From: Bryopsis sp. KO-2023
Lineage: Eukaryota; Chlorophyta; Ulvophyceae; Bryopsidales; Bryopsidaceae
Length of the DNA stretch: 64,000 nt
Direction of reading: 5' to 3'
Assembly (NCBI GenBank): GCA_030272585.1
Contig: BSYQ01000005.1
Location: 2,604,001-2,668,000, forward strand
Shown here: piece by piece, positions 1,863 through 48,770 of the stretch
How the letters are laid out: each line of letters begins with the position of its first letter
Numbering within the stretch: the first letter of the stretch is position 1
The notes under the pieces: model-generated
The model's input: only the letters and a program-made list of their open reading frames with translations
What the model was told of the DNA's origin: nothing
Database searches by the model: none
Translations under genes and position numbers: made by a program

Positions 1863-3254
1863 CTAGTAGCAGAAGCACTGCGGCACCGACGATCCCAAGG
1901 GGAAAATCAGCAGATTGTGGTTGGGGTCGAAAGAGGCCCCGCTTCGCAGCCCATTCTTTGCGCATCTATCCAAAACACGAACACAGTTCATAATCAACAC
2001 AGATGGACAGATTTCTCAAAGAAACACTCCACCATCAGCTGACTGTTCTCACCCTGGGGCATCCCAGCAGCACGAGTACTCTGCAACCGTGGAGCAAACT
2101 GGGATCTGGGCGCCGGCCGTGGTCGAGGAGGAGTCAGATTCAGCACTTCCGTCGCCGCTTGTCACAGGAACTGGGTCATCGACCCCGCCGCCGTTGGCGT
2201 TGATCGCGGTGGAGCTTCCCTCCACGTCGACTCCGCATTCGGAGTTGGCATTCAGTTCGCCTGTGAACAAGACCCTCAGGTTCTACCAAATAGATACATG
2301 CATATGGTCGAGCAGTGGGGCCAACACCAAGCCAACAAACCTGTGCAAACTTCTGAAGTCGCGATCGCCAACGCGTCAGCGATGGCCGTTGTTGCGGAAA
2401 GAACAAACTCGGAGCGGAATGCTTCGGCTGTTCCGCTGCCTTCGACACAGGCTCTTGCACTACCTTCCGCAGCTGCCGCCGCGAATCCCACTGCAATCGC
2501 GGTCAGGTCTCCCATACACACTGCGCTCGAATCGCCACCAGCTGCAACAGCAACGGCTCGAGCGAAAGCTTCTGCATACGCTGTCGCAAAGGAATCTCCG
2601 CGTGCTACACTGAAACCGCATCCGAAACCTTGACCGTCACAGGACACCTGCACGAGCCCAGCAGGAGGTCAATACACGAAAGAGACAAGAAGATTAACTG
2701 AGCAACACACTGAACCTTATCTCGGCTGCACTACCTTTGCCAACGCCTCGAAATACACCGACGCCACCGCAGTCGCTGCCGCCGTTGCTGCGGCTTCCGC
2801 CGTCACGGGACTGCACAGGTCGGTTGTCAGGATTTCCTTCACTTCGCTCTCGAGTTTGGACTCTGCGAATGCAAGAGACTGTGGGCACAGCAACAAGAGT
2901 CAGCGACTTTCTCTGTGCATTTTTTCAGCAAGTTAAAACATAAACACCACCACAAGACGCTCAACACAATTCTCACGTTGCAGCTCGCTCCGGCCCAGCC
3001 CTTGCACGATCCTGATTTCACCACGAGGCTCACGGAGCCAAAGACCTGGCAAGATGTGGTTGAGGTCTGGTAGAGGCGTCGACCTGAAAAAACACATGCG
3101 AATATTCGAGCTCAGACGGCGCACACCAACGAAAGCAAGAAAACGACAACTTGCGCCGACATCCCACAAAACACATGCGCTCCAAACCTGCAAAAGCTTG
3201 CGGCAGCGCCACGAGTGCAAGGAAAGCCAACAAGATTGTAGCGTTCATCGTCAT
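1863..3254 (-). CDS. Secreted Ala-alternating, Cys-rich protein, copy A
   Basis: Six exons on the minus strand: 3254-3188, 3083-2977, 2878-2735, 2647-2341, 2260-2053 and 1965-1863, encoding 311 residues. Residues 1-22 form a clear signal peptide ending in the AFAG region, so the product is secreted or surface-bound. The mature part has three Cys in exon 2, then long stretches in which alanine occupies every second position (for example ATAIADALAIA), broken by single Cys residues. A Ser/Thr/Gly-rich linker follows, and the tail carries a CC pair and ends CFCY. All splice sites are intact, including an exon 6 acceptor that differs from copy B (gatag versus acag). It lies in inverted repeat arm A and is almost identical to copy B. 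Ten Cys are shared with the diverged copy C. I do not recognise the family; a structural extracellular or cell-wall role is only a guess. Confidence 0.82.
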
Positions 3255-3927
3255 TGTGAAAAGGAAAAGTCGAGACAAAACAGTTGGCTGAGAGTAGGAA
3301 GTACGCACACACGGAGAAAACACACAAATCGTTGCTTGTGATGTTTGTGAAACAACTGGTTTTTATGCTGTCGGTTGCAACCTTCCCTGTCCTGCGTGAG
3401 TCACGCCTAACTGTTGGCAGGCCACTGCACTCACACGAGCAGTACCTTTTGTCAACCTTAAGGTCGCAAATACTGGTTCTGTGTGCGTGCAAAATAACAT
3501 AACAATATATTAGGTCCCAAAGAGAGGCTTTGGTGGCCGGTGCGGGTGCCCCTGCCGAAATTGCTGAACTTGAAAAAGGGATTCCGCAAGGTCTACACCC
3601 AGCTTCTAAAGTCTTTTGGAAAAGCACTTCAAATGTATGCAGGATATTGATATATGGAGGGCATCGGGGCAATTGGAATTGTTGAGTCATGGATGAACGA
3701 TAGTATTTCGAACCTCTTCTCCTCATTGAAATTGTTCTCGGCCCTGCAGGAAATCTGACAGACATCCTGAACATCCAGGATGTCTTTAGGAGATGGGGGA
3801 GGGGCATCTATATAAAACCACAAAATACAACAATTCCAATCAATCGATATCAAACAATTTCGTTGAATCAATATTAAACAATTTTCTGGTTCGCTATTTA
3901 CAGCCCTTTGGTTTATTCAACATCCCA
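3255..3927. other. Spacer between copy A and the cysteine synthase gene
   Basis: The first 350 bases are the copy A upstream region within the inverted repeat. They include a short plus-strand frame at about 3515-3605 whose translation is conserved in the other arm (see findings). The rest, up to the cysteine synthase stop, is unremarkable 3' flank. Confidence 0.5.
3360..3403 (-). promoter_or_regulatory. Putative core promoter of copy A
   Basis: On the minus strand a TATA-like ATAAAAA (3360-3366) lies about 106 bases before the start codon. A TGACTCA bZIP-type box (3397-3403) lies upstream of it. Both elements have counterparts at the same spacing before copy B (TGACTCA 47237-47243, ATAAATAT 47274-47281). 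Conservation in the other arm is expected from the duplication, so it is weak support. Confidence 0.3.
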
Positions 3928-6900
3928 TCAATCCATCTGAATGAAATCCAGAGAACCACCTTCCCCTCGGGGTGCCAATCCTGCTCCCTCTAAATACTCC
4001 GGATTGTGAAATTTGCTCAAATGCCTGGCACCCCCATCGCACAGAATCGTGACAATCACATGCCCAGGGCCCAACGATTTCGCAACCTTCACCGCTCCCA
4101 CACAATTCACAGCCGTCGAACTCCCCAGAAACAAACCATCGTTTCTGACCAAGTGCTTCGACATTTCCACCGCTTCTCGATCGGAGCATTTGAAAGCCCC
4201 ATCGATTTTCGCCAGAGAGAAGTTTTGGGTGGTTCGGTTGATCCCGACGCCTTCGGTGATTGTGTCGAATGGATTTCTGAGCCGTTTTCCTTCGGCCTCC
4301 ACAGAATCGTACATCACTCCTCTTGTGACCTGGGAAATGTTACGATTGCTTTCTCTTTCTTTTTTTCTTTTTCAACAAAGTGCTCTATTTTTCGAGTCTG
4401 AAAACCTTATGCAGCCTGTCCACTTTTCGGATGAGCAATATGGGGTAATCTTTCTCAAATAAGTTTAAAAAAAGGGTTGATTTTCTGACTTTCCTGATGG
4501 TTGCAATCATATATTTTGTTTCATCTGCATTCTCCTTTTCATGTTCAAAAAAGCATAAAAAAACGAGAAATTGAACTTTGAAAAAAGCTGACGATGGGCT
4601 CCATCGAGGGCTCGATGCCGGGACTTTTTGCTTGCAACTTTTTCTTTTTCAATATTTTTCCAGGGTGGTTTTTCATTATTCACAAAAAAAAGTGTGTGCT
4701 TTCCCAAACTAGTTCCCATTTGGTTAATACTTGCCTTGTTGTAGAGGCTCGATCCTGGTGGGTCTGACAAGAAAATTTTCACTCTTTCGCTTTTCCCTTT
4801 CAAGTAATTCGAGACGCCAGCAATTGTTCCCCCAGTTCCAGCACCAGATACAAAAGCATCCATTTTTCCATTTGTCTGACTCCACATTTCAGCCCCTCCA
4901 CAAAAGAAAACACGAAAAAGCCATTCATAATTCTTTATTCCCCCAAAAAACCCCTCAGTAACAATTGAAAAAAACCATCACTCTGTAGTCCAGGTGAATG
5001 ATGACTTCTATGATTGATCGTGCCAACGTGGCTTTTTTCTTGGACCTTGGATTGTGGGTTGATCGTTGAATTTGTAAATAAAACAAGCAGATTTTATAAA
5101 AAAATAAAAATCCCCACCTGTTTTCAGATGCGCTCGGAAGTTCGCCAAATTTTCAAACTGATCGGCAAACATCGCACCGTGGGGTCCATTTTTAGATTCT
5201 TCGTTCGCGCGGCGCCTAGCCACATTCACGAAATGATCCGGATGGACTATCGAAACCGGCCGGACCCTTTCAACCACAGCATCTGAATGGAAAAAGATCC
5301 CCCTTTTAAAAAAAACCTGGTAAAACTTAAACAAAAAATGTCTAGGTCTTTATCGCCCCGATCAGCACAGTAACAGAGTTCATGACCAAGTGGGATGGTA
5401 GAAGATCGCAAATCATATATCTCCAGTTTGAATTTGTGTATCACCTGTTTTGTTTTTCACAGTTTGGAGGTGGACCCTTATGCACTTTTTTGAATGAAGC
5501 TTTCTGCCTTTGCTGGAATATGGTCCGCAAAAGAATATGAAAACTTTGAGGAAACTGACAAGAAAAGAAAGCATTGTCCGGGATTACTCTTGATGTTTCA
5601 AAACAACATGACAGTCATGAGGAAACCCACATCTGAACCTGATGGGTCATGCAGCATTCCAAAACTTCCATATATATTTTTAGAATGTTTAAATATTAGC
5701 CATTGAAAGAGATCATGAAAGACATCATGTAATGGTCAAGTCATACATCTAGTGCTGTGTGACGTATCGGCCATTTTCTTTAAAAAACAAAAAAAAACGA
5801 ACCTAAAGCCTCCAGTGTTTGAGCTTTCTCAATAGCAGCATCATCCGGCATCACGATGTGACAGCGACATCCGACAGCTTTTGCCACCTGCCATTGTTTT
5901 GGGAAAAAAAAAAAATCAGACAAAGCATTGTTCGAAGGGAGGGGGTGTTGAGGGTTGGGGGTTGAAACAGCACCAAACCAGAAAAAAACAACGAAAAACA
6001 ACAGCAAATTTTTCGTTTTGAATAAGCATCAAAGAAACGTGTGATGTCCGTTGCTCATCTCTTTCACGAGTTGAAAATAAGCCACCTTTTTTTGCAAGGC
6101 ACTATTCTGCTACTCTGTTTTTTCGTATGTACATGAGGTAAATTTACAAGTTTCACAAATTCATCACAGCAGTAGGGAAAAGAAAAAAAAATTACTGATT
6201 TCTGAAGTCACCTACCATGACTAGACTGACCCCTGTGCTGCCAACAGTACCCTCCGTAATGAGCCCTCCAATATCGAGAGCTCCAGACTTCATTCCCTCC
6301 TCAACCAGCTCCTTGGCGACTCGATCTTTGACACTGCCCCCCGGGTTCAAAAATTCAGCTTTTCCCAAAATCTGCATTCCGCCGGATGCAGTGCCCAAAA
6401 TAACTAAGCGCCCTCGATGCTAAAATATTATTGCACTTTGTGCTGGCTTTTTTTTTTCTCTCTTTGAAAAAAAAGGAAAAGACAACTTTTTTCTTGGCTT
6501 TTTGGAAAGGGGGAGGGGTTAACAGTAGAAAACTATCATTGGCACAGCGAATCAGTTTTGTTTTCGATCCAGTTTGGAGTTTGATAAGCAGATGGCACTA
6601 CCATCGATCGATCGGCTTCATGGCAAGAGTGCCTCCCTCTGCTGGATCTTTTTATAAAAAAAGGATTCTTATTTTTTACTTTTTACTTTTTATTCTAAAA
6701 TAAAATAAATCGAAAATTATACAGGAAGAGAAACGGACCTCGCATCCCGTGGCTTCAGACAAGCTTGCGATTCTAATGAGGGGCGTATTTCCGATAGCAC
6801 CCAAAACACCATCGACCACCTTGTCCATTCGATGACACTGTCCATGACTGACATAGTGCCACACCAACTGATGACACATTTTGCAATTAGCTCAACAATG

Positions 6901-7484: not shown

Positions 7485-10400
7485 ATGAGTACTCTTTACG
7501 GAAGCACGGGGTCCTCGCTCGGCGGCCAGCGATTGACGCTGTCGCTACCAAAAAGCGCTTGTGCCCCACGTGTCGGTCGAGCCTCGAAGCTCGGGATTCG
7601 GTGCAGCAGCAGCACCGCTCGCCCTGCTGCAGTGATCCGCGACGACGATAAGGAGGAAAGCCGAAAGTATAGGCGATCGGTAAGTGGTAGACCTCCAGGG
7701 CAGCGAGCGTCATTGCTGTTCCTGTACGCGTTGCCTTTCTGCTTCTCTCGACGCTGAATCGTCTCGGTCGGTGAAAATGCGAATCGTTATTTGCGTAGCT
7801 TTGAGTTTGCGCGTGGTTGTGTTTCGCATTATAAACCTCTAACCTGAGGCGTGTTTTTTTTTGGGAACGTAGGTTTTCAACTTCGAGAAGTGGGCAAAGT
7901 TCAGAAGCACCAGTCGATACTACTTCGCCATCAAGACCATCCCCGAGTAAGTAGTAACAGCCAGACAGAAAAATCTTTCGCCGTCGCTGGGGGAGGGGGG
8001 GCAGGGTTGTAGTACTTTGATACTGCGGACGTCATGGTGTCGTGGTGGGAGGCCGCACAGAGACGTCCATAAACACACTTGATTCACACCTGCGTGGAAC
8101 GTCTGAAAAAAGGTTTTAGGAAAGTGTTGTTTCTTTCTTGCTTCGGTTACTACACAACGGGTTGATACTCGTCGTACGGTTTTTTTTTGGGGGGGGGTGG
8201 GGGGAGTTGGCTTGAGTTAGCTTGGGTGTCCAAAAGTCCACTGCAGCAGTAAATTCTGTGGAGGGATTTTTTTAGGGCTTGTGGAGGGGGTGATTTGTAG
8301 GGGTTTGATAATATCCAATTTGAGAGGTGATTGGCTTTTTTAACGGCCAGCCAGACATATTCGTCTGCAGAAATGAGTTAGTTGCTGGATCATATTAGAA
8401 TTTCCAAGTGCACCTGCGATTGAACAGCAATTTGGTGAGGTCACCTTGTGCACGAGGATAAGGTCTGCAGTTTTGATGGTTTTGATATAACATCTAACCG
8501 GCCTTCCGCTTTCTTTTTTGCTTTTTTTCCCCCCTTGCAGATCCCGTATCGTGCGATCGCTGTTTCCTGCAATCTTTTGGGTGGGTGGATTCTCTGCCCT
8601 GGTGGGTGGCTACGAATCGGCAATCACTGACGGTCTTTTGCCGTCTTACCTCCCCACTTTCATGCTTCCCAACCCAACTCCACAAGGATTGACTTCTTTC
8701 GCATTGGCGCTGTTGCTCGTCTTCAGGTGGGCTTGGAGACCATTTCAATATCCCTTTTTTCCTTTGCCCCTTTTCGAATGAACCGACTTTGTTTTCACTA
8801 AAATTTTCATTCGATTCTTACCCCTTACAATTTTTCTTGAAACATCTTAAAACATTTTTTCTGTTTTCCTGCTCCACTCTGTCTCTTTTTTTTACGGACT
8901 TGCTGGAACTGGCTTACGACGACGGTGTACTGTTACTTTTCCTGAATAGGACAAATGCCAGTTACGGTCGGTTTGATGAAGCTCGAAAAATGTGGGGGCT
9001 CCTCCTGAATAGGGGTAGAGACTTGCAAAGACAGGTGAGTGTTTCTTGCCATTCCAATTCATTCTTTTTTCCCTATCCAGTTTTTTTTGGTCCCCATACA
9101 TAGGTAGCGAATCCTTTTCCTCCTGACCCCCACAAATCAGGTGGTCCACAATTGTTCAGATTTTTTTTGCTTTTTTTGCTTTTTGCTTGGAAAATTGTTT
9201 ATGCATGTTTTTCGGTCCGACATTGCAGGTGTTGACTCACCGATACGCTGCCGATCAAGACATGGAGGAATTTTCCGCCCGGTGGATCGCTGCCATGGGT
9301 TACAGTCTGATGTGCCATTTGAGGGACGATCATGACATCAGGGAGGAAGTCAACGATTTGCTTCGCCCCGCCGAGGTTGAAGCTCTGGTGAGTGGGCTTA
9401 AATCTGAATCACTCAATCGAGAAAAATGAGGATATATTCCCACACATGCAGACGTTATCTGTCCCGCGGGGGGGGGGGGGGGGGAACCTGTTTGAGCAAA
9501 ATGTAGCTTTCCACAAAATTTGCACTAGCTTTCCACAAAGTTTGTACAAGTTTGAGAAGCAAATTCGGCTTTGTTCGATTTCTTCCCCAAAGAAATTGTC
9601 TTGTATATATGTATATACTATATATGGTGTACGGTGCACCAACCCAATTTTCAAAATGGTGCAAAAATTGAAATGGGATATGTGTGCATTGTCAGGCTGC
9701 CTCTGAGCATCGCCCCTTGTACTGTATCCAAGTTTTGTCCACCATGGTGAGATCTGCAGAGGCCAATGAAATCGAGCAGCTCCAGATGTTCCAGAACTTG
9801 ACCACTTTCGAAGATATTTTGGGAGGCTGCGAACGACTGTTGTCCACCCCTGTGCCTCTGTCTTACACCAGGTATCCATTCTGATGGTCCCCAAATCTAC
9901 TGTGATTAAATTTTATTTAGGAAAGGGGGGGGGGGGGGTTGGGAAGGGAAGGGGTCATCCTGCTAGATACATTGCCAGAAACAAAGTTTTTTGGCTTACT
10001 TCTCTGCCCTGTGGTTTGTATCTTGAGCTTTCTATGAATGGAGACTGTGTGGGGGATGTCCAGCAATATGCTGGGGGGGGGATTTTCGGTGAGTTTTCAT
10101 TATTTTTAAAAAAAAACTCTTGGCGGTGTTTTTCCACAGGCACACTGCTCGGTTCCTTCTCTTATGGCTGACCTTCTTGCCGTTTGGTTTGTGGACTACC
10201 ATCGGATGGGGAATGGTCCCTTGCAACATCCTCGTCGCTGCCCTGTTGTTGGCTATTGAGGAAATCGGGGTCCAGATTGAAGAGCCCTTCGGGTATGGAC
10301 CTATTTTGCTGGTCTCTAATATTTTTTTGATAGATTTGTATACGTTTTATTTCCTTTTCTGTCCTACTGTGACTGCTTTTTGATGGTCCCAAGTGTTAGT

Positions 10401-13145: not shown

Positions 13146-15890
13146 ATGCCGGCGAGCGCCAGGAAGAAGGTCATAATTGATACGGACCCGGGCATCGGTG
13201 AGATATGAAACGAAGGCGACCACTTTGGTGCGCCTCGGCGCGAACAGAACCAAGAAAAAAAAACAACAACAACGCAGCTGGCCATGCAGTCACTAGCTGT
13301 CGAGAACAATTCCAAGATAAAAGAAACCAACCCAAAGAAAAAGGTGCGTTTTTCTTTTTTTTCCGCACGGCACGCCACTCAGTCTTTTCCTGGATATCGG
13401 GGGCTATGTTTATCAGCACATGAACCCGACCATGGCATCTACTTTTGCCAATCCATATTGGAACGAAAAGAAACAAAATTTGGGCAAAACTCGTGTGAAT
13501 GTTGCCCCCACACCATGTCATATATGTAAATATTTACATATATATCTGTCAGAAAAAAGAGAAGCATTGGGACACCCCCTTGCCTCTGTACCGAAATATA
13601 ATTGTTGACTGGACTGTTCTCCAACAGATGATGCCATGGCTATTCTCATTGCCATGGAATCGCCCGAAGTGGAAATTATTGGGCTAACCACCGTCCATGG
13701 AAATCTGCCCACCCGGGAAGCAACCAAAAATGCCCTTCGCTTAATGGAACTCAGTGGGCATGATGATGTGGGTTGTAGTGTCAATTACAAAGGGGCAGTA
13801 CATTTATCATACGCTTTTTCCCCTGGATGCATTTGTTCTCCCCCCAAAAAAAATTGAAAAAATTGAACGATCTGCAGCTAGGTATTTCTCTTGCACCAAA
13901 AGACAGTGGTGAAGTTTCTTTAACACTTTTTTTTTTTTTTTAAACAATCTGGTGCCACCAATGAAAATGATAAAGAAATTAACGCAAAAAAATGCAACTT
14001 GAAAATGGTAAAAATCATAGAGCATATCTCTTTGAACATATATACATAGATGTAAATTCACTTTTGGAATGATAAAATAAACTTAAGAACATGTCAGAGT
14101 TGAATATGGTTACTGAGGATTAGGCCGATCAAATCGACGAAGAATTTCTTTTGTTTATTTATATAATTATTGGAGCTGGGGTGACTTTGCTTGATGTTGT
14201 GTTTTTTTGTTTTTTTTTATTGATTCGGCGGTTGAGCAGGTTCCAGTGGCAGAGGGGAGCAACAAATTGTTTAATGGAGAGGACGTTGTTCATGTGGCAA
14301 GTTTTGTTCATGGTGACGATGGGCTGGGAAATACTAATCAGCCAGAGCCCAAGGTATTATTATTATTTTCCCTGTGAGTTATCAGCAAGTTTGGTTGTGT
14401 TAAAAAACTGTGTTTTTTTTTTCTTGAAGGGGGGTGGGCGTCAGAAACTGCACTTTTTCAGGAATTCATGATGTTATCCATTTATGTTGGTTGATAATTT
14501 TCGTTGAATGATTCTATTTGCTTCTACGCGTGTTTTGTGTTTCTTTGCTGTTGATTTTCTTGATGTCCCTCCTGGCATATTCGTTGGACGGTGCAGTCAA
14601 ACTTAATTCTAATTTTTTTTTTTTGTGTGTGGGTGGTATTTATGCTAGGGGGCAGCAATCGAGGAATCTGCTGTAGATTTCTTGGTAAATACAATTTTGA
14701 GGCATCCAGGAGAAGTGTATGTTTTGGCTCTCGGTCCATTAACAAACGTTGCACTTGCACTTCAAAAAGTGCCCGGGATTGCGAATAAATGGGTAAGGTG
14801 CAAGTATGGAGTGTCACCCCCCCCCCAAAAAAAAAAAAAAAAAAAGTTACAAAATACATCCGATGCACTTCAATTTGTTTGTCTTAGGGATGCTTGTACA
14901 ATATCTCCTTCTTTCTTTCTTTCTTTCTTCGGCGTCTGTTTTTCTTTTTTTCCCTTGAAAATAAAATAAAATACAAAAAAACGCAGTCCTTCACATGCAG
15001 GCAGGCCTGGTGTGCATGGGGGGGGCATTTTTCATGAATGGAAACGTCAATCCAGCCAGCGAAGCCAACATCAGGAGCGATCCCGAGGCCGCCGACTTCG
15101 TTTTCCGGAAAGGAAGCAACATCACCGCCATAGGTTTGGACGTCACGTGCGAATGCATTTTCCACAAGAAGGAAATTCTGGGGTTGAAGGGCAAAGGAAA
15201 ATATGGCGATTTCTTGAGGTCCATCATACAGTTTTACTGGGAATTCTACAGGGAAAACTATTTCGTGGATGGCGTCGTTCCGCACGATGCGGTAGCTCTG
15301 GTTGCTTTGATTTTTGAGGATCTGTTCGAGTTCAGGGAAGGGGGTGTGAGGGTGGCGACGGAGGGGATTTGCCGTGGTCAGACACTCATGGACAGTAAGT
15401 GCTATCTGGCCTTTCCTTCTTTTTATTTTCTTTTTTTCGAGGTCATTAGGAATTATGATGTTTTTCCTGGCCTGCATCACGCATTCACTCATTTCCGCAG
15501 TGGGTGGGGTGCAGAAAGTTCTCAGGGTCGATGTAATTTCTTTAAAGAATGGATAACTAAAACACACAGACATTTTAGGTGGAGACCTGATTTTTTTTTG
15601 GCTTGATGGGGTGGAATGTCTGTATGACCGACTGTGGACGTGCAGACGATTAGACATGTTGATGCGACCATCGATTTTTCCAGTTTCACGAATCAGGCTT
15701 TTTTTTCTCAAGTTTTCATTTTGTTTGTTTTTATTCATTCGGTGTTTTTTCTTTGTTTCGCTTTTTTGAAGGCGGCTGGAAGCATTGGCGAATGAAAACG
15801 GAATGGTCGGATTGTCCCAAAGTGAAGGTTGCATCAGGGGTGAATCATCAAGGGGTCATGGATATTTTCCATGCCAGGATCACTGGATGA
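13146..15890 (+). CDS. Inosine-uridine preferring nucleoside hydrolase
   Basis: Six exons: 13146-13197, 13628-13767, 14240-14353, 14649-14792, 15001-15394 and 15772-15890, giving 320 residues. The calcium-binding signature DTDPGIDDAMA is split by the first intron (residues about 13-23). It is followed by GLTTVHGN, VPVAEGS, FVHGDDGLGN and the LALGPLTNVALAL block. The MGGAFFMNGNVNPASEANI block and a C-terminal PHDAVAL with the active-site histidine also fit the IUNH family. Family enzymes hydrolyse the N-glycosidic bond of purine or pyrimidine ribonucleosides for salvage; plant URH proteins are mostly cytosolic. No targeting peptide is visible. Exon 2 ends before GTGGGT to keep the frame HDD|VPVAEG, a less typical donor. 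Length matches the family. Confidence 0.93.
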
Positions 15891-15915
15891 ACACACACAC
15901 ACACACACACACACA
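15891..15915. repeat. (AC)n microsatellite
   Basis: A pure AC run of about 25 bases begins immediately after the nucleoside hydrolase stop codon, so it would lie at the very start of the 3' UTR. Confidence 0.85.
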
Positions 15916-17197: not shown

Positions 17198-18576
17198 ATG
17201 AACTCCATCACTTTTGCTGTCGTCGCATATCTATCGCTGGTGGCTGGAGCGTCCGCAGGTTCGTTTTTATGTTCTGAGTCGTTTTATAGACCAACCCAGA
17301 ACCTTTCGGAATAATGAGCAGGACAGCGCCCTTCGTTCTATTTTTCAAGGCCTGCCATCGAGCCAGTCCAGGGCATCATGCGTATCTGGAGCGATAATCA
17401 AGGTCGATCCGATAAGGGGACCCTGCACGGGAAGTGCAAGGGCGTCGTGCTCGGTGAGTGGTTCCACTTTTCTTAGATTCTTCTACTGCTATCACGAAAA
17501 CTGTGTAACGGATAATGTTTATTGAACTTCCTGTGGACTCGAAAACATCCTCCCAACTTCAATCGATATCGCTTCGTGACCAGGTTAGGGTTGGCGGCAC
17601 CCAAGGGATCGACGAACAAATAAGAGTACTGTTCACGACGGATTTCTGTGACCCAGTTTCTGTGACTAGCGCTGCACAAGCCGTGGCTACAGCCATGGCA
17701 CAAAGTTATAGCCAAGCCCTATCGCAGGTAAGAATATAAGCGAGGAGACCATCCAGCTGACTTCCGCTATTCCTAAAGTGTTGCAAGGGTCACGATCTCG
17801 TAACTGTAAAATTTTGGCGCGCGCGTTCAGATATCTTGTGCCTCTGGGGGTTACGGCTGTGGATACACCTTATCTTCGGAGGACGCAATTGCCGTCGCAC
17901 AAGCTGAAGCTTTGGCGAAAGCGGTGACGGCAGCGTTCCAGGGGGACTCCAGCGCAATCTGCGTGGCTGAACTGAGGTCAGTTGCGACGAGAATAGCGCA
18001 AGCTGCCTCCAGTGGTGTCTCAAAGTCGTGTATTCAAGGAAGAGGCTCGGCGACCGCTTTTCGGTCCGGTTTCGTGTCCGCAGCGGCCACAGCCATCGCG
18101 GAGGCGATCGCTTCCGCGACAGCCCAAGTTTGCAACAGTGAGCATTCCAGACGTTTACATCCAAATTTGAGCACAGAATCTGATGATGAATTTCTAAGAA
18201 ACGCCTTGTATCGGATTGTACTTCACTCAGCAAGAAGCTTCAAAGTGATTAACCACAAACTGAACTTCAATTACCACTGAGTGAATTGTTTTTCTTGTAG
18301 CTTTCCTTGTAGGTGTATGTATATAACCTACAAAGGGCTCAGTGGGTCCTAGTGTCTGGCTTGAGAAGAATTAGAATAAGATGAGAGGCATTGATGCATG
18401 AATAACATATACTCTTTGTGCTGCTTTCATCAGAGCCTGGAGCTGAATGCAAAGCAAAGGTCCAGGGGAGTACCAACAGCAATCCACCCCCCGTTGCCAG
18501 AAGTAGAGATCCTGTGCAGCGGCCCAGAATTTGGCCAAGGCATACCCCCAACAGATCCATATTCAGGGGTGTCTGA
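17198..18576 (+). CDS. Secreted Ala-alternating, Cys-rich protein, copy C (diverged)
   Basis: Five exons: 17198-17258, 17290-17453, 17584-17727, 17831-18137 and 18434-18576, about 272 residues. Residues 1-20 form a signal peptide ending GASA. Exons 3 and 4 are exactly as long as in copies A and B (144 and 307 bases), and intron phases agree. The ten Cys of exons 2-5 align: three in exon 2, TTDFC, SC...GYGCGY, IC, SC, QVC and AEC. Alanines alternate with other residues (for example ATAIAEAIASA). Unlike A and B it seems to lack the final CC/CFCY tail; the frame ends at TGA 18574-18576 after a Pro/Arg-rich stretch. Intron 1 would be only 31 bases, so the exon 1-2 junction and the last exon are less certain. 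Function is unknown. Confidence 0.7.
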
Positions 18577-20395: not shown

Positions 20396-23300
20396 ATGTC
20401 AGGGGGAAAGTCGGCGGGGTGTGGGGGCGATCGCGTTGAATTGGGCGAGAAAAAATCTCGGCCCAAGAAAACGCGAGGTGAAAGGGACAGTGTGGCGAAG
20501 GGACGTTTGGAGCGGTTGAGTGCTTTCGTTAACAATGGTGAGCGATTTTGAGCCAAAAAAAAGTTGCCAATTTGTCTGTTTTTGTGCCATGATTTGCCAT
20601 CGCGTCCTTCAACGAAAACCAACACTGCATTTTTTTATTTTTTTTCCCCTACACTGTACACCGGGCTTATTTTCCTTTTCCTTTCTCGACCTAAAACTAT
20701 TTTTTTTCCCTGCTATGATCTGGGGGGTTGAACTTTTTTTTTTTTTTTGGGGGGGGGGGGGGTTCTACATCTTTTTTCATAGAACTGCTATGATGTATGG
20801 GCTGTTCTTCAGGTATTTCTTCATTCTTTTACCAAGAAGGGGTCTTTGTGGCGAAACATCCAGGGCTCGTGGTGGCAGTGTGTTGTCTGCTGACCATATT
20901 GGGCCTGGCGGCTTTTTTCAATCTACACAGAGAAGAAATGGATGCCGAAAGATTGTACACACCGAGCGATGCTCAATCATTCAAAGACAGGGAATACGTC
21001 GATTCAATGTTCGGACATTCGTCTGTCCAGGTGAACCACAGGAATCAAAAAGGATAAAGTATTTGTTTTTTGGAAAAGAGTGACGAAAGAAATAGAAAAA
21101 AAAGAATACCTTCCGATAACACTAGTCTTTTCAAATCGAGATTTCATGGCTGGGATTCGCCAGCTTATTAATTGATTGTGTTGATTGTGTTTCTTTTAAA
21201 AGTGTACAAAGAGGAATATTTTTTATTTTTGTGTGTTGATACACACACACATACTCCAAAAGAAGCTCCTTTTTTTAAACCAAGTTTTTCGGCAAAACTG
21301 GTTTACACCAGAAATATTTTTTGGGGGGGGCCAACTTCGCCAAAGATTTTTACAGAACTTGATTTTGCGGGGAACTATTTTTGAACCATTGGCGAAAATT
21401 AATTCCAGACCCATTCTTCAACCAACACAAATTTGGCAGCTCTGCAAGTTCTTGCAAGAATTATTTTTTTCCGAGAAATTGCGTGTGTGTGTGTTTTTTT
21501 TCCAAAGGATCGCATAATCATTGCTGGGAGGGAAGGCCAGAATCTTCTCGATAAAAACGCTGCAAAATCAAACCTGCTGTCCTTCATGGAACTGTGGGAA
21601 GGCATCGAAAATCAAACCATCCATTACGAAGGCCAGCCTGTTCGATTGATGGATATATGTTATCGACCAATGGAAAGCCTCCCTTGTCGGGTACAAATTT
21701 AATAAAGAAAAACTGTTGAAAAATCCAGACATATTGCAAATGCCAGAAGCAAAGGAAATAAACGTTTTGTAGGCTGATCCATCAGTGTTTTTAATTCTTT
21801 TTTTTTGTAAAGTGAGGGCTAATTTGTGAAAGACAGCTCAAAAAAAGAGGTTTTCTATTGATGTATGTCTGTTTTCTATTTGCCTTTTATGAAATGCTGG
21901 AACTGTGTGCAGCTGTATAGTATTCTTGATGCTTGGGACTACAACAAAACGCTGTTAGAAGAAGATAATGATGTTCTTGGAACCATCAATTCTGGTGAGT
22001 TGGTCAATCCAGAAAAATCCAGAATATCAATGAAACAGAATTCTGCTAAACAATTTATGATTTTTTTTTCTTCTTCCTGAAATGCCTGATTTTTTTGGTA
22101 CTTTTTCTCTTCTGAAAAATAGGGAAAGAGACATTGATGAGGATTGAAGTACACAGTTTTTTTTTAATTTAGTTTTGGACATGTGTTTCTGAAGAAAGAA
22201 GGATGCACCTGGTGGTTTCTTAATGGTTTTCTTTGGGGTCAAACACAGATGTGAAGGATTCGTTCGGCATTAGCATAAATAAAGAGCTGGTGCTGTGGGG
22301 TCTGGAAAAACAGGGAGAGACCATAAGTGGGGCCGAAGTTTTCCTTTTGGCGATTGATTTGCACCATGATCTGGTATTCACCACCAAAAAAAAAAGAAAA
22401 TTGGAAAATGACTCAAAAAAAATTTTGAGGAAAAATAACCATTCATTTTTATGCCGAAGTGTGTCGTCCCCAACCTCGAGGAGAGAAAATGAAAGAAAGA
22501 AAAAAAAACCCTTAATTTTTCAAGCATAAAAACAAAGAGAGATGTCACACTCTTCTGGACCACAGACAAAAACCGGTGCGTTAACAATTCCTCTGGCATC
22601 AAAATGAAAAGTAGAAAACACCCCAGAAAACCTTGACGCTTTTTTTTTCTTCTTTGTTTTTTGTCTCGTTCCAACAGGAGAGAATCGGTGGGGCCAGTCA
22701 AGATCCGAGAGTGAGGGCTTGGGACAACGAACTGGTGGATTCCATCGTGAACAGATGGGATCACCCCCACTTGCGAGGCTATGTCAGCAATTTCCGTGCG
22801 GTGGACATCGAATCCAACATTGCCCTGAACAGCGACATCAAATTTCTGGGGTTGGCCTTCTTGTTGATTGTGATCTACAGCCATGTGGTGCTATTCAGGA
22901 ACAGCCCCATATACTGCAAATCCCAACTGGCACTGGTCAGCGTAATATCAGGTGGGTGAGACTAACCCAGGCAAAAAAAAATTGGATAATCAGAAAATCA
23001 GAAAATTAACAATGATGTACTTTTGTTGACCTCACATTATTTTATTTATTGACCTCGCATTTTGTTTTATTTTATTGATTTTTATTTTATTTTATTCAGT
23101 GACATCGCATTTTTATTTTTTTTATCGATCTCACATTTCATTTTTTCTTACTTTTTTTACAGTGCTGATGTCCATCACCACAGCATTTGGCCTGGCCCTT
23201 TTCTTGAGAGTCGCCATGAACTCCGTGGTGAAAAGCTTGATTTTCCTGCTGCTGGGTCTGGGCATGGACGACACTTTCGTCATAATGGGGTCTTACTTTT

Positions 23301-26300
23301 CAACGGACGAAAACCTGCCGGTGGAGGAGAGAATGGGGTTGACCATGATGAATGCCGGCTCCTCCATTCTGGTCACTTCTGTGACCGATTTCCTTGCGTT
23401 TTGCGTGGGGACTTTCACGAAAATGCCGAGCGTGCAAGTCTTTTGCTTGTATGCAGCCATCGGGATTTTTTTTGATTTTCTCTACCAGGTGACAGATGGG
23501 GTGCTGTAAAAAACCTCGCGATTCAGCAAAGACGGGCAGAGAGAGGCGGGGGGGGAAGAAAAGCAGAAAACTTTGCAAAATATGAGTTTATTGTATGCTG
23601 AAGCATCGGGAGAACTCCTTCAAAAAAACAGCAAAAATTTTGAATCGTGATTCGAGGTCCAATACCCCCCCCCAAAAAAAAAAAGAAAAAAAGCAAATCG
23701 TCAAAATGTGTGTAATATCCTTACTTGCAATCATTTTCTGATACTTTCTTGTGGGTGCTAGGTGACTTTCTTTGTGGCGTTTGTGGCGTGGGATGCTCGC
23801 CGAGAGGAGAGGTGCAGAAGGGGGGCTGTGGCTGGTGCATCCAAACCACCTCCCAAAAAATTGGATTCCAAATCTGCAAAGTCTTGCTCCTCTTCGGAGG
23901 ACGCTGCACTCGGATTCCCCATACCATCGTTTGGTGTAAGCAAGGGGATCAGGTGGACTGAAGTAAGCAGCATTATCTGACTACCAAAAAAAAAGAAAAA
24001 AAAAACTGAAAAAAGAAAAAAAAAGAATTAAAAATTCTAAAAATAAGTAGTTATTAACTAGTTAACTAGTTATTTTAAAGATAACTTAACCACTGATTAT
24101 TAAGGGGTCACGTATAATTGTTTGATATTAAGTTTATTGTTTCGTTATGACTAACTAATATGAGCTGACCGAGGTTGATTCTCTGTGATTCCCTCCTCCA
24201 GAAATTTGGGAGCCCTTCAGTCAACCACATACCATCTGGAATCGACGACAGCGCAAGAAGCATTAAGCCAATAGGGGAGCCCACCGATTTTCCGGAGCCA
24301 TCAAATAATCAAAACCTCAAGAAAATTGTTTCAAACCGACCAGCGGTGCCCAATAAGAAACTGTTCGGTAAAGGGGCGTACGATCCAAAAGCAAAAACTC
24401 TGGCTGCTAGGTAATCGTTGGTTTGTTCATTTGGCCACCCAAAAAGCATTTCATTGCAAAAATTCATGCATCGTTTGTTTCGAACTCATTCACAGAAAGG
24501 CAATCCCCATTTCATATAACCGGTGGGCAGCGTTTGTTTTTTTCTTTTTCTCAGTTTTTTCTATGATATCAAATTTTCTTGCCATGTTTTTTCCGCAGGC
24601 TGGTTGGAGATTGGCTGCCGAACATCTTGCTCAATCCATGGGGCACCTCAGGGGCATTACTAATCGAGATCGCACTCCTGGGATTGGCCGTTCAAGGATG
24701 CTCGAAGGTTTACATGGATTTTCAGTACAGAGATTGGTTCACTCCGGAGGGCTCTTGGCTGCATTCCGCTTTCGAAATCGAAGACAAATTTTTCCACGGG
24801 GAGCAAAATCCTTTTGGAATTTTCACCAGGGAGCCCGCCGATGGGAAGCCGTATTTCGAGCATCAAGATGCCTTGATCAAACTGGCACAGGAAATCAGAA
24901 ACGATCCTTACGTTGCTCCGTTACCTGATGTGGTCAGCTGGTACGGTTTCTAGTTTTACTAATCTTATTCTTTTTTTAAATAATTTTAGCATTATTTACT
25001 GTTATTGTATTATTTTTATTTTATTTTTTTTTTGGGGGGGGGGACGTTGGGAAGTGGGACGTGAGCCTTGGAAATCTATGTATATGTTTCAGAAATGCCA
25101 AAGGAAGCTGCAACAGAAAGAAAAAAATATTCATCAAAGCCTGCAACACTCAGAACAGTGGAAACTGTGGTGGTGGTTCCGACATTGTTCATTTTTTTAT
25201 CCTCCATTCTTCAAGCACCAGTTTTTCTCTTTTTTTTTCCTGAAAAAAAAGGTATGAAGTCTACTCAGATTGGCTGGTGGAGTCGACACACGCACACGAA
25301 CTGGTGGATTTCAGAGCCCCCAATGTCACAGCTTTCAACGAATGGTTGATGGAGTTCCTGCTGACACCTGACGGCCGCCAATTCATGCCGGATGTACGAT
25401 TCGACCCCCAAGGTTCCAAGATCATCGCCACTCGAATCGATGGCTACACCAGAAATATAAAAGACGGATCCTATGCCATCAGGTGCATTTCACCCAGCTC
25501 AAGCTGACATCTACAACTTTTTAAACCATTTTCTTACTCAGAGAAAGAGAATTTATACATATATTCATATGTATAAAGGGGCATGGCCAATCGTCGACTC
25601 GACAGAAGGTCCCCTCACCCTCCAAATAAAGAAACAACAAACCTTTGGTGTGCGTTGAGCATGCATGCATGCAAATCACATCTGAATCAATTTTTTTGTT
25701 TTGTTTTGCAACACGTCTGTTGCGATTTGCATGTATCTAAATTGCTTGTTTTTTTTCCGTTTTCCAATAGATGTGTGGACAGCTTGCGGGAGACCGCCAG
25801 CAGGGCGGCTCCGGAACTGGATCCTGTTGCTTATCATTTCATGTTTCTGTACATCGATGGATTTCGCATCATGAAGTGGGAAACCATCAGAAACGTTATC
25901 ATCGGAGGGGTGGCGGTCTTTGCTGTAACCCTCTTGGTCTTGGCAAACGTCTCGGCTGCGCTGTTGGTGGTTTTGATGGTGGCGCTCACGGATGTCATGC
26001 TACTTGGTAAAGCTGGAAAGATACCCATTAGTTTGTTTTTCGAAGGTGGATTTACGAGAAAAAACAGCTGGATGCAGGGAGAGTGCCCCTGCCAATTTTG
26101 GCTGGAAAAGAAGATCAGACCTTTCGATTGGGCTCAAATGCATTTTGGATGTTTCCTTCTTTTTTTCCTGTCGTTGATCCTTTTTGGTATTACCACCACC
26201 TCAATCGAGATTTGGCTGATGTGTGTGTGTGCGTTTTCGTTGGTTAGGATTCATGTGGTACGCGGATTTAACGTTCAATCCAGTGACATCCATCAACGTG

Positions 26301-28992: not shown

Positions 28993-31900
28993 TTAAGTCG
29001 TTCCCTGCTTGGCATCGATCTGCCTGTTCATGCTGAACATATTCAAGAAGTGCTTGGCAATGCCCGAAACTTTCTCGACGAAATCATCATGCTCATTTGC
29101 CTTGGTTTTGGAAAGGACGACGTATGTGATGGAAAGATCAGGGTCAGTGATAGGGGCTTTCAACAAATTCACTTCGCGACCGCTCTGCGATTCACAAAGG
29201 TCTGTGCTGGAGGAACTGTGAAAAACACACACACACAATCAAACATTCTCAACACATTGACATGAACAAATATCGGAGCATTGCAGCACGAAGCCAACCT
29301 TCTACAATGTACTAAATAGTATGAGAGAGGAGGGACACCCTCACAGTGCTTGGCTTATTATTATGTCGGCTTACCATTTCAACATGACAGTGTAGTCGAG
29401 GTGGTCACTGAGGTCGCCTGCGCGCTGGTTTCGCATGTAACTGAAACGAGACTGGTCTGCATCCTTTGCAGACAGATCCCCAGTTGAGACTATCCAAGGC
29501 AACTCCGTGACCCCACAGGTTCTGGTTTCTGGTGTTCTTCGGCTCAGGTGGTAGTTTCCACCAACCGACAGTTGCAGCTTTTCGCCGGGGCCGATCGAAA
29601 TCCCTGGCATGATTTTCTTTTTGGCATCTGAAAAATCGAGCAAACAAGAGAGCCATCAAATTTGAGAGCGTGTCAAAAGGCATCGTGATGTTGTGATTGA
29701 CAATTCAGGAAAATATCCGAGGAGGAATGATTTATTGGTTGAGTAATCTTGTGTGATTGGCAAACCAACATTCCCAACTGAATTACTGAATGCGAAGGTT
29801 TTTGGCAGAAATGGGGTCATCAAACACCGACCCAGATGTGGACATGCTGGTAAATGATGGGCAGCCTGAATTGGATGCACGATTTCAAGCTGTGTACTTC
29901 ACTATCCCTGTCAGTTGATCAGAGGATCAGCATACCTCTGTCGCAAAGCACGATGGCCTCAGTGAGTTGGTTCTCCAAGTAGACAAAGGAACTATCTGCA
30001 GTCCTGAGTTTACGGCCTGTCCATTCACCCCATTGGCCGGAGTTGTCACCACCCCATTCAGAGGTTGCCCCACTGTGCGTGTGGTAACCCCCTCCATTCG
30101 TAGGCGCACTGGATGCACTGTACTCGTTTGGATCGTACATGTCGAAATACTTCATGGAACTGATGGAGTGGGGGTCGCTCAGGTAGTTCCTGTTTGGATC
30201 CTTGTACATTCCCTCGAATTTGGGCTTCTTGTTGGGAGGGTTGAAAACAAATTTCACGGAGGTGGTGCCAGGGGAAGGTTTCTTCAAAATATCCACCTTC
30301 ACCACATCCGCATTTCGGAACACACCCCCACAGACGCCCCACTCGCTCGACTCACTGGCCACAACAAACAATCACTGTCAGAAAGCCAGGTGTCTCCGCC
30401 AAGGCAGAATATGAGCAAGCACAAATACACCATTTCTGGCAGTGGTCTGATAGAACCATGTATTCAAACAGACTCTATAGACCCATGCCACAAGGGGAGC
30501 AGCCGTTCCAGTAAAAGCGCTGTTGCGGTACCAATTCTGGGGTGCTGACAGGCTCGTCTTAAAATCAACTTACCACTCCAGATCCAGCTCATAGCCCACC
30601 ATATTCATGGGAACTTCACTGTTCGGCTGCTGGTAGTAGTAATGAGTCGAGTACACCACTCCATTGTCTTCGACACCTGAGCCAATTTCATAGGGGAGGA
30701 GAGAGGCACCACTGGGACTAAACTCATCCCAAGTGCATGACTCCATGATATCTGCTCCTGCAAATCCGACGTAAATATCACCGTGCGTGGGACTGGAGTA
30801 AGTAGGTCCGCTCCAGAAGTGCTTGGGTTGAGTTGTGATCATGACTGTTTCCCCAGGCTTCACCAATGTGGGGATAAGGAAAATCTCATGTCCTGTATGT
30901 AGCACAAAGAACCTCTGTTATTTCACTTGATAGACCTTCAGTGAGACTGAAGCTGGGGCCAGGCAAAAGGGTCTGCTCATCCAACTTTCAGAACCGAGAG
31001 TACAGTGAGTGTTGGGATGGAGCACACTATTTCTGGGGGTGTTCTTAGACTGTTATCTTGCCTGGGAACACAGTCTGGCACAGAAACACGTGGGTGTCAA
31101 GGCGGTTCTCTGCGTAGACATAGGTCTCCCCCTGCATGCACAGTGGCTGCTCTGGCATAGCCAAATTGCCGTCTTCCTTGCAGTATACGCCATGCGTGGA
31201 GGTTCCGTAGTCCCAAGTTCCGTCGCAGTGACCGACCTTAGGCCCGTTCACCACGTCGTAGTTGGACGTTTCTGCATCATTGAAAGTCGTCCAGTAGTAA
31301 CCCGGCTCGCAAGCGTACAAGCAGTGGACACCTGGGCGGCACCCTTGGGCCTTGGGATCCAACGCCCAACCCTTGTTCACTGTAGAACCTCTCCTCGAAC
31401 CAGGCAAGCACACGACGTGATCTTGATCTGGGAGCTGGCACTCACTACCGCGGTTATCCCAACACGATTGGAAACCCCTCCGCGGCCACGAAGCATCAGA
31501 CCTGCCCCAGTTGTTCTCCCACCAGTCGTGGTGGTTATGCATGGTTTCATATGTGTTGATACCTTGCTTTCCTTGCGGGCATCCTTCGTACAAACCGACG
31601 AGCTCGAAACCTGACGCGGAAAACCCCAAGTTTCACTTCCAGAGTCTGGTTCAAACATTCTTGGCGTGGCTCCAAGACTACAACGTTCGATATACCTTTA
31701 AGGCTCCTGCTGTTCGGGTTCGTATCGTTCAAACCTTCTCCTCCCACCTGCGAAAAGAAACAAGCCAGAGCGCCTCAAGCAGGTGCGAGGAAAAACATGG
31801 CAGTCATAGCTGTCATTGTACTAATAGAAGAAACGCAGCAGCGCTGGACAAACGCCCCCAGACCGTGAAACACAATATTCATCCAACCAATGCGTCGCAT

Positions 31901-44973: not shown

Positions 44974-47038
44974 GCGATCTTGTTTTCCTCTTTTTCGATA
45001 TCTCCTTGGTTTTTACTGTCTTTTTTTTATGTTGGAAGGGGGGGGGGGGGCATCCATCTTCTCCCCTTGTTGTTTTTGTCTGTCTTTCCGATGAGTAATA
45101 CGCTTGGGAAAAAAAGAAGATACCAATTAGGATCTTTGTTGTTTTTTTTTGCTTTCGAATGAGAAAAGCTAGTCGCTGTATTTCAGATTGGGGGAAGGGA
45201 AAAAGAAAAAAAAAAGGAAAAAAAAAGAAGAAAACAGGGAGAAGATGAAAAATCGACGAAATCAGGGTTGGAGTGGCAGTGCTAATTTGTTTTAAATCGG
45301 TGTCTTTTTGGGTGGTGCCGTACACTAGATCTTGGAAAAGGTGATTTGGGAAGAAGAAAAAAAAACAAGAAAACAGGAAAAAGGGTGTAATTTGTTGGAT
45401 GATTAGTGAAGTCAGGTTTTGATATTGTGTCGAGAAGAAAAAAAAAAGAAAGAAAGAAAAAAGGATGCGAATCCAATGGATTTTCAGACTTGTTGACATT
45501 GGGCGGTGGTGGGTTTTCGTGTGTTCCATGGTTTCGATTGGTGGGTTGGTGGGTGTGTTTTTTTTCCTCTCTCTGATTATTTCCATATATGATTTTTTTT
45601 CTTTTCTTTTTTTTATCTTGTGGTTGGTTGGCGTGTTCAAATTCTCTTGATTGAATTTTTTGTTTTGTTGGTTTTTGGAATATTTTTGGTGGATATTGAA
45701 GAAAACTTTGGGATACCGTTTGTTTGTTTTTTTAACATCTTTTTTGTTGTTTTTTACCTGACAAACAGACAGAAAAGAAAAATATGCTTGAACCAAATTT
45801 TCAGATTTCGCTTCACAAGCTGATTTTGGGGGGAGGAAAAAAGAAAAAGAAAAAAAAGTTGATCCACGAAAAAAATATTGGAAAAGAAAAGAGGGGGAAA
45901 AGAAATTGACATTGATCTATTGGAATGAAATCTTTTTTTTTTTGTTCTTTCCTAGTCAAGCTGGAATGAAAATTCAGGCCGTATTTATGCATGATGAAAT
46001 TGTTGAATATATATCACAAAAGGAAAGGCGAAGGGAAAAAAAACAAAAAAAAGAGTGAGAGGGGGAGAGAAAGAGAGGATTTAAATTTTTTACTCTCTTT
46101 CGAGATACTGTTGTTTGATGGGGTTTTTTTCCTTTTGATTTTTATAGCAGCTTTTTGCTTTGATTATTTTATGCTCGAAGCTGGGATTCATGAACAGCTC
46201 TTTTGGTATGAAAAAAAAACATGAACAAAAGAAAAAGACTTTGGATAATTTTTTTTTTCTTTTTGTGGCTGCTTGTAATTACCTCATTCTGCCAATTTTA
46301 TCTTTGGCCCTTCAGATTTTTCTCTTTTTTTCCCCGAAAATGAGAGGCGGATTGTTTGATATAGAATATTGATTTGAATCGGAGACATGATTTTCTGTTT
46401 TTATTATTTTCTCCTACTGTCTTGAAGCTACTTTTGTTTTCAAATATATCGGAACATTTATTCAGAGTGGTGGGTGGCTCTGAAAATTTATAGAAGCCTC
46501 AAGTTTAGTAAACCGTCCCAACAATGCTTTTTAACGAAATATTTTGGTGGTGGGATGCTCCCCCATCCTCCTCCCACCCCCACCCCCTTTTCGGCAAGCA
46601 TATATTTCATATTTCTTAACCCAATCGCCAATTGCAAGTGATTTCTGCAGGCTAAACTAGAAGACAAGGATCTTTTCCGACCCACTCCAGAGTTTGTGCG
46701 AGCAATCAATCAATCAATTACATTATAGAAAAAAGAGGCCATCACCCCTGTTTGTGCGAGCAGCAACAAGCAAAAATCAAGCCCATGCACACATACTTTT
46801 TTTGCATATTGAAAATCAATGATATCACACAGGGATTCATTATGGTGTGGCCGTCCGCAAAGACCTGCCCCTTGCAGGTCTTCTCATCCTCAAATTGAGG
46901 GTGGAGCCAGAAAGTTTTCAATTCATCAGTAAGGTTTTTGACGATCCATCCTGCCCCGATCTGAAGCCCCTGCAGTCGATCTCTTGTGTATATTTAAACT
47001 GCTTTTTTAATGGATGCTGGTCTCCAGCAGCACCCATT
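44974..47038. other. Spacer downstream of starch synthase III
   Basis: Long A, T and purine-rich runs dominate, with G13 at 45038-45050 close to the starch synthase stop. Frames here are low-complexity only. The stretch ends where inverted repeat arm B begins. Confidence 0.55.
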
Positions 47039-47109
47039 GGTGTAGACCTTGGGGATTTCCTTTTTCAAGTTCAGCAATTTCCGCAGGGGTACCAGCACTG
47101 GCCACCAAA

Positions 47110-47133
47110 GCCTCTATTTGGCCAAATAGAGGC
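47110..47133. repeat. 24 bp perfect palindrome
   Basis: The sequence from 47110 to 47133 equals its own reverse complement (half-site GCCTCTATTTGG). It lies near the outer edge of inverted repeat arm B. At the matching place in arm A the sequence diverges right after cctct. Confidence 0.8.
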
Positions 47134-47236
47134 CATGGGCCCACTTGCGAATAAGCGCACTGAAGTCTTTGCGATGTTAGAATTCAGAAAAAAGGTACTG
47201 CTCGTGTGAGTGCAGTGGCCTGCCGGCGGTTGAAGG

Positions 47237-47281
47237 TGACTCATGCAGGACAGGGAAGGTTGCAACCAACAGCATAAATAT
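47237..47281 (+). promoter_or_regulatory. Putative core promoter of copy B
   Basis: TGACTCA (47237-47243) and a TATA-like ATAAATAT (47274-47281) precede the start codon by about 145 and 105 bases. Both are retained at equal spacing in arm A. Assignment rests on consensus resemblance only. Confidence 0.3.
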
Positions 47282-47385
47282 CAGTTGTTTCCCAAACACC
47301 ACAAGTATCAACTGGTGTGTTTTCTCTGTGCGTGCGTACTTCCTACTCTCAGCCGACTGTTTTGTTTTGACTTTTCCTTCTCACA

Positions 47386-48770
47386 ATGACGATGAACGCT
47401 ACTGTCATCTTGGCCTTCCTTGCACTCGCGGCGCTGCCCCAAGCTTTGGCAGGTTTGAAGCACATGTTTTTTGCGGGATGTGGGCGCAAGCTGTCATTTT
47501 TTTGCTCTGGTTGTTGTGCGCCGCCTTAGTTTGGCATGTGTTTGTTCAGGTCGACGCCTCTACCAGACCTCAACCACGTCTTGCCAGGTCTTTGGCTCCG
47601 TGAGCCTCGTGGTGAAATCGGGATCGTGCAAGGGCTGGGCCGGAGCGAGCTGCAACGTGAGAATTGTGTTGAACGTCTTGTGGTGGTGTTTATGTTGTAA
47701 CTTGCTGAGAAAATGCACAGAGAAAGTCGCTGACTCTTGTTGCTGTGCCCACAGTCTCTTGCATTCGCAGAGTCCAAACTCGAGAGCGAAGTGAAGGAAA
47801 TCCTGACAACCGACCTGTGCAGTCCTGTGACGGCGGAAGCCGCAGCAACGGCGGCAGCGACTGCGGTGGCGTCGGTGTATTTCGAGGCGTTAGCAAAGGT
47901 AGTGCAGCCGAGATAAGGTTCAGTGTGTTGCTCAGTTAATCTTCTTCTCTTTTTCGTGCATTGAACTCCTGCTGGGATGGTGCAGGTGTCCTGTGACGGT
48001 CAAGGTTTCGGATGCGGTTTCAGTGTAGCACGCGGAGATTCCTTTGCGACAGCGTATGCAGAAGCTTTCGCTCGAGCCGTTGCAGTTGCGGCTGGCGGCG
48101 ATTCGAGCGCAGTATGTATGGGAGACCTGACGGCCATTGCTGTGGGATTCGCGGCGGCAGCTGCGGAAGGTAGTGCAAGAGCCTGTGTCGAAGGCAGTGG
48201 AACAGCCGAAGCATTCCGCTCCGAATTTGTCCTTTCCGCAACAACGGCCATCGCTGACGCGTTGGCGATCGCGACTTCAGAAGTTTGCACAGGTTTGGTG
48301 GTTTCGTGCTGGCCCCACTGCTCGACCATATTCATGCATCCATTTGGCGGAACCTCGTGAGTGTTTTCTTCACAGGCGAACTGAATGCCAACTCCGAGTG
48401 CGGAGTCGACGTGGAGGGAAGCTCCACCGCGATCAACACCAACGGCGGCGGGGTCGACGACCCGGTTCCTGTGACAAGCGGCGACGGAAGCGCTGAATCT
48501 GACTCCTCCTCGACCACGGCCGGCGCCCAGATCCCAGTTTGCTCCACGGTTGCAGAGTACTCGTGCTGCTGGGATGCCCCAGGGTGAGAAGAGTCGAACT
48601 GATAATGGAATTTTTCTCTGAGAAACCTGTTTATCGGTATTGTGAACTGTGTCTTTGTTCTGGACAGGTGCGCAAAGAATGGGCTGCGAAGCGGGGCCTC
48701 TTTCGACCCCAACCACAATCTGCTGATTTTCCCCTTGGGATCGTCGGTGCCGCAGTGCTTCTGCTACTAG
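47386..48770 (+). CDS. Secreted Ala-alternating, Cys-rich protein, copy B
   Basis: Six exons: 47386-47452, 47550-47656, 47755-47898, 47986-48292, 48376-48583 and 48668-48770, 311 residues, all the same lengths as copy A. The signal peptide spans residues 1-22 (ends ALAG). Exon 4, the Ala-alternating core with six Cys including SC...GFGCGF, translates identically in A and B despite several silent base changes. Exon 5 adds a Ser/Asp/Gly-rich linker and SCCWDAPG; exon 6 ends in CFCY. The exon 5 donor follows CCCCAGG, and ignoring it would give an immediate TGA. The even Cys spacing suggests about five or more disulfides in a secreted protein. The alternating small-residue pattern favours stacked strands or a silk-like packing over ordinary helices, but this is inference. 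The family is not recognised. Confidence 0.85.

Follow-up and report, generated by a model that had tools for sequence, protein, structure and literature searches.

A large family of apparently secreted, cysteine-rich proteins with a strongly conserved mature sequence in the green alga Bryopsis sp. KO-2023

The genome of the green alga Bryopsis sp. KO-2023 carries a large, dispersed gene family for apparently secreted, cysteine-rich proteins with an alanine-rich core, for which the family libraries searched here gave no convincing match; in dozens of copies the silent sites have drifted while the protein has stayed nearly unchanged, and purifying selection on the mature protein is strong. Three members, designated genes A, B and C, lie in the window, the stretch of 64,000 nucleotides analyzed here (contig C5, positions 2604001-2668000), and the genome searched comprises 91,088,769 bases on 28 contigs. 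Judged by these sequence patterns, the product of the family may be a secreted structural protein, cross-linked by disulfides and required in high dosage, in a wall, a matrix or a wound plug; we give this reading an even chance of being correct.

Results

Gene structure in the window

Rebuilding genes A and B exon by exon yielded GT/AG borders at all five introns and an open coding sequence of 936 nt in each, with exon lengths of 67, 107, 144, 307, 208 and 103 nt in both genes (Table 1); the splicing to two products of 311 residues that an earlier note on this DNA had proposed is thus confirmed at the level of sequence. The two coding sequences differ at 28 nucleotides and the two proteins at five residues, four of which are located in the signal peptide; the signal peptide of the family is putative and was judged by eye. 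The diverged gene C is less sharply defined: a protein of 272 residues, as originally described, results from the exon-2 acceptor at 17290, and one of 252 residues from the acceptor at 17350, with which exon 2 measures 104 nt, nearer to the 107 nt of gene A; a third exon-2 acceptor also leaves an open frame, of 238 residues with nine Cys. Exons 3 and 4 of gene C measure 144 and 307 nt, the same as in A and B, just as the earlier note had observed, and its exon 4 is 49% identical to that of A. Gene A encodes 16 Cys and gene C ten (in its 272- and 252-residue forms); the six additional Cys of A constitute a C-terminal module that gene C lacks. The proposed alignment of ten Cys holds for the five of exon 4, which align in all ten sequences compared, whereas for exons 2, 3 and 5 of gene C the correspondence to the Cys of A was judged by eye.

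Table 1. Positions of the family members and associated features in the window
Feature	Position	Strand	Details
Gene A	1863..3254	-	Exons 3254-3188, 3083-2977, 2878-2735, 2647-2341, 2260-2053, 1965-1863; 311 aa
Gene B	47386..48770	+	Exons 47386-47452, 47550-47656, 47755-47898, 47986-48292, 48376-48583, 48668-48770; 311 aa
Gene C, diverged member	17198..18576	+	Exons 17198-17258, 17290 (or 17350)-17453, 17584-17727, 17831-18137, 18434-18576
Exon 4 of A	2341..2647	-	Ala-rich core domain with five Cys; served as the main query in the genome-wide counts
C-terminal 6-Cys module of A	1863..2111	-	End of exon 5, intron and exon 6
Extent of A/B DNA similarity	A: 1485..3599; B: 47039-49149	A: -	91.7% identical over about 2.1 kb; inverted copies
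CATAAA, TATA-like	3362..3367	-	113 nt ahead of the start codon of A; equivalent in B at 47273-47278
TGTAA, likely poly(A) signal	1509..1513	-	349 nt downstream of the A stop codon; in B at 49121-49125

The window contains a range of other genes. A PLP-dependent enzyme, cysteine-synthase-like by reading, was noted at 4507-4977, a bestrophin-like match just below the cut-off at 8491-8781, a nucleoside hydrolase at 14965-15606, a Patched/sterol-sensing domain at 23030-23509, and a Plus-3 (Rtf1-like) domain at 49936-51579. On the minus strand, two open stretches at 30570-31632 match the Pfam beta-glucosidase SUN family (E 3e-7 and 3e-16), which is mainly fungal, and an SH2 domain is matched at 57549-58001 (E 6e-6), here in a green alga. 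Also present are the catalytic domain of a starch synthase and a CBM53 domain; this pairing is typical of the starch synthase III of the green lineage.

Family size and genomic distribution

The exon-4 query of A (110 residues, including seven read from the preceding intron) returned at least 142 matches in the genome at E <= 1e-3, and the exon-4 query of C at least 132 at E <= 0.01, adding two new places on contigs C14 and C15. The 144 exon-4 matches merge into at least 142 loci on 18 contigs, a lower bound that includes fragments, possible pseudogenes and several matches shorter than 160 nt; 126 of the 144 are at least 270 nt long. The three members counted in the earlier note were therefore a large underestimate. 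A-like loci, with 93-100% protein identity to exon 4 of A, number 39, and 14 of them are located on contig C5. At E <= 0.01, the exon-3 query found at least 58 matches and the exon-2 query at least 66, of which 30 are 100% identical over all 35 residues.

The C-terminal module was matched at least 109 times (E <= 0.01), often twice per gene. Some of these matches are distant from any exon-4 match, by more than 100 kb at C2:5606078 (E 1.9e-5) and by more than 1 Mb at C5:821044 (E 0.0017); judging from this distribution, other genes, which may form a group of their own, seem to carry the module too. Another six-Cys module, at C2:7945328, likewise has no exon-4 match nearby.

Neighboring A-like genes tend to be arranged divergently, in all five pairs within 5 kb and in eight of nine within 20 kb; the tendency weakens with distance, and among neighbors up to 60 kb apart nine of 13 pairs are divergent and four convergent. 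Both members of a pair were modeled in three regions, and their starts there lie 472, 422 and 2287 nt apart. The close pairs of other family members (within 5 kb) are all tandem, on the same strand in 14 of 14 cases, and two-gene tandem units of diverged members at C4:1227472-1268560 and C4:1887467-1926710 form mirror images about 35-40 kb apart. Four places (C6:2523999, C4:3722676, C11:3842610 and C2:3108254) match residues 5-42 of the exon-4 query with equal score and lie in open frames of 85 residues; they are perhaps a dispersed repeat that carries a captured fragment. The genome also contains telomere-type TTTAGGG arrays, one of them at the very start of contig C1.

Lectin-like sequences occur in the vicinity of some members. 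Bryohealin/BPL lectins form a heavily duplicated, multi-copy family in Bryopsis sp. KO-2023; 79 matches to the F5/F8 type C_2 domain were found in the genome, and long open frames of 1169-2201 residues with many such lectin-like domains occupy C12:2513466-2534889 and 2831585-2835847. By coordinates, two members on contig C2 are located about 2 kb downstream of lectin-like matches. A fused lectin gene was considered and rejected, since the C2 member in region L049 has its own ATG and a signal-peptide-like start at L049:1482, which indicates separate genes.

Conservation and selection

Copies were sampled in 40 regions, comprising the A-like tier and some of the tiers that follow it, together with one region of contig C2 and the window. 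A tblastn search of the 40 regions and the window gave 49 exon-4 hits (two of them in L043); the 46 full-length hits represent 41 distinct DNA sequences. The exons of A were projected on 48 of the 49 hits, gene C being left out, so that mostly the best-matching tiers are represented; 34 of the 48, including A itself, keep all six exon lengths without an internal stop; ATG stands at the projected start in 30 of these models, and the other four have Met at codon two or three. The other 14 hits were set aside before conservation was counted: exons are displaced as if by insertions in L010, L031 and the minus copy of L023; in L032 and the minus copy of L040 the projection broke down at one exon edge; L042 and L044-L048 belong to diverged types that the A template aligns poorly; and L041 and the two hits of L043 looked degraded, two residues of exon 4 being absent in L041 and exon 4 being interrupted in L043.

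Across the 34 models, 221 of 311 residues are invariant, including all 16 Cys. Pooled omega values, obtained for this family alone from the 31 distinct coding sequences of the 34 models, are 0.42 for the signal peptide, 0.019 for exon 2, 0.047 for exon 3, 0.040 for exon 4, 0.30 for exon 5, which holds the linker, and 0.085 for exon 6; the median omega is 0.033 in 715 exon-4 pairs with 0.05 < dS < 1.5. Between exon 4 of A and its A-like copies, dS ranges from 0.14 to 1.17 and dN from 0 to 0.041, and the identity of the proteins is thus not only a product of recent copying: this silent divergence rules out recent duplication as the sole cause, and gene conversion alone would have homogenized the silent sites too. 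Conversion may nevertheless act in some inverted pairs; an identical coding sequence is found in both genes of such a pair in region L013.

Mostly conserved signals flank the coding sequence. A CATAAA or TATAAA motif occurs at -112 to -122 in 26 of the 34 models, with none found there in the remaining eight, and TGTAA, the usual poly(A) signal of green algae, follows the stop codon by 323-359 nt in 33 of 34. In blastn comparisons of A with many silent-diverged copies, similarity is bounded approximately by the TATA-like box on one side and the vicinity of the poly(A) region on the other (query 1430-3261); in closer copies it reaches beyond this span.

Alanine pattern and predicted fold

Exons 3 and 4 encode 41 Ala in 151 residues. 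Ala pairs at lag 2 number 25, compared to a mean of 10.8 in shuffled sequences, none of which reached 25 in 5000 trials; weaker excesses appear at lags 4 and 6. The alternation of Ala over about 100 residues, as claimed by the earlier note, is an overstatement: the lag-2 excess is strong, yet strict alternation does not extend beyond eight A-x repeats, or 16 residues (ATAYAEAFARAVAVAA). An AlphaFold2 model of exon 4, built from three sequences of the window (two of them identical), has low confidence (pLDDT 50.4, pTM 0.35) and consists of three helices and two strands, with the Ala segments in helices. Hydrophobicity has a helical period of 85-100 degrees in the first Ala segment, 140-155 degrees in the second, and 90 and 60 degrees in the third, where 180 degrees is also strong; the corresponding conservation periods peak at 105, 170-180 and 90-100 degrees. 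On the model and these periods, helices are weakly favored for the Ala-rich core, and the second segment speaks against them.

Search for relatives

No convincing match was found in Pfam (A and C at full length, the C-terminal module and the exon-4 frames), in NCBIfam (A only) or in PHROGs (ten exon-4 sequences); the weak profile matches that did appear (E 0.014-0.12) each occurred in a single sequence, one of them at 13.6 bits against a cut-off of 25.5. In the PDB, A had no match up to E 10, and the exon-4 profile retrieved only 3qs2_A (E 0.61). Scans with two peptide patterns produced 14 pattern matches in viruses and 212 in prokaryotes; neither confirmed a relative, and a prokaryotic or viral origin was dropped from consideration. 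The view that the family is an unrecognized one is upheld by these searches. A literature search of limited coverage found no such family named, which does not establish its absence from print.

Particular protein types were sought as well. An F5/F8 type C domain, characteristic of F-type lectins such as Bryohealin, was absent from full-length A, full-length C and the exon-4 frame of B; hydroxyproline-rich or arabinogalactan features were not found in A, which has nine Pro in 311 residues and two Ala/Ser/Thr-Pro pairs; and in place of the long tandem repeats of silk fibroin or spidroins, positions 1800-3300 of the window contain one short array with a 12-nt unit in 2.1 copies.

Discussion

Dozens of copies with a near-unchanged protein suggest a building material that is needed in bulk, and the combination of a putative signal peptide with 16 invariant Cys makes a secreted, cross-linked structural protein the most likely reading. 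Histones and tubulins provide analogies: numerous gene copies whose protein stays fixed as their silent sites drift resemble the genes for such abundant, assembling proteins. As a structural protein, the product would be exported by its putative signal peptide; the Ala-rich core would fold as short helices pinned by disulfides, and a variable Ser/Thr/Gly/Asp linker would connect it to the C-terminal six-Cys module. Packing and cross-linking of many near-identical subunits would yield a matrix outside the cell or in the vacuole, for example a wall layer, mucilage, a septum or a wound plug; dosage would be provided by many promoters, several of them head-to-head, and the protein could not drift, since every subunit would have to fit the same assembly. 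The wall-structural role raised by the earlier note accords with copy number and constraint and, at the level of sequence, remains a fit; overall, the original observation is partly confirmed and its interpretation partly supported. The conservation could also be compatible with a role in storage or as an enzyme.

Storage proteins usually leave room for drift in sequence and for the expansion of repeats; in the Bryopsis family, by contrast, exon lengths are fixed in the 34 intact models and more than two thirds of the residues are invariant among them. This makes it unlikely that the family is a vacuolar or ER storage protein in the manner of cereal prolamins, Cys-linked, multi-copy and kept for nitrogen, even though it is itself multi-copy, apparently secretory and Cys-rich. 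Two papers describe insoluble prolamin polymers (PMC4097401, PMC4973428), and inter-chain disulfides are named in the first of them (PMC4097401).

About as doubtful is a secreted defense or microbe-facing protein, antimicrobial or surface-binding in function. The apparent secretion, the Cys content and the many copies would suit this role, as would the position of two C2 members downstream of lectin-like matches in a genome where lectin-like domains are numerous too; however, at the single C2 locus examined the lectin is a separate gene, and defense families normally diversify between copies, whereas the copies studied here are held nearly identical.

Tightly packed strands of an ice-binding or silk-like type, as the earlier note had envisaged, are improbable to a greater degree. 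The strong lag-2 Ala signal points in this direction, and the second Ala segment is strand-like in both hydrophobicity (140-155 degrees) and conservation (180 degrees); against it stand the short reach of strict alternation, the low-confidence model that places the Ala segments in helices, and the helical hydrophobic period of the first segment, the other segments being mixed.

The notion that the copy number reflects selfish spread, with the family as cargo or amplification product of a mobile element, was judged weak and is the least probable of all: dispersal over 18 contigs, inverted copies and the four identically scoring fragments on C2, C4, C6 and C11 speak for it, but at many loci A and its silent-diverged A-like copies are similar over roughly the interval bounded by the TATA-like box and the vicinity of the poly(A) region, and the coding sequence is under purifying selection.

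Within the preferred reading as a structural protein, wound sealing is a more specific option. PMC3252328 describes wound repair and protoplast formation in Bryopsis, and its reference list includes a 1972 title on a Bryopsis "wound-healing protein." The family might conceivably be this protein, a self-assembling, disulfide-hardened Ala-helix material that is encoded by dozens to about 140 copies and acts with the amplified lectins to seal a giant cell after cutting; we regard this identity as a long shot, and the tie to the older protein as a guess. A protein this constant over dozens of dispersed copies is in any case unusual and points to a major cell material, one that is contained in no family library tested here. 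For Bryopsis, it would offer a defined gene set for studying wall construction or wound sealing in a giant single cell, and it may represent a new natural Cys-crosslinked biomaterial.

Comparison with known systems

Spider tubuliform and aciniform spidroins place Ala at alternate positions with Ser, Tyr and Phe, and have helical domains that assemble into material; the Bryopsis family would resemble them in its alternate Ala and in material assembly. In contrast to spidroins, which are repeat proteins of very large size and contain few Cys, its members are compact, with 16 Cys in 311 residues and without a long tandem repeat. Cereal prolamins are likewise multi-copy, secretory and Cys-rich, polymerization by disulfides being a prolamin feature; the family differs from them by the lack of a convincing Pfam match and by a length that is fixed in the 34 models instead of repeat-variable. 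Bryohealin/BPL lectins share the multi-copy state in the same host, without their lectin domain having a counterpart in full-length A and C or in the exon-4 frame of B. The green-algal wall glycoproteins, HRGPs and AGPs, are secreted proteins of the algal matrix, as the members of the Bryopsis family would be; they are described as hydroxyproline-rich (PMC10762512), in contrast to the low Pro content of A (nine in 311 residues).
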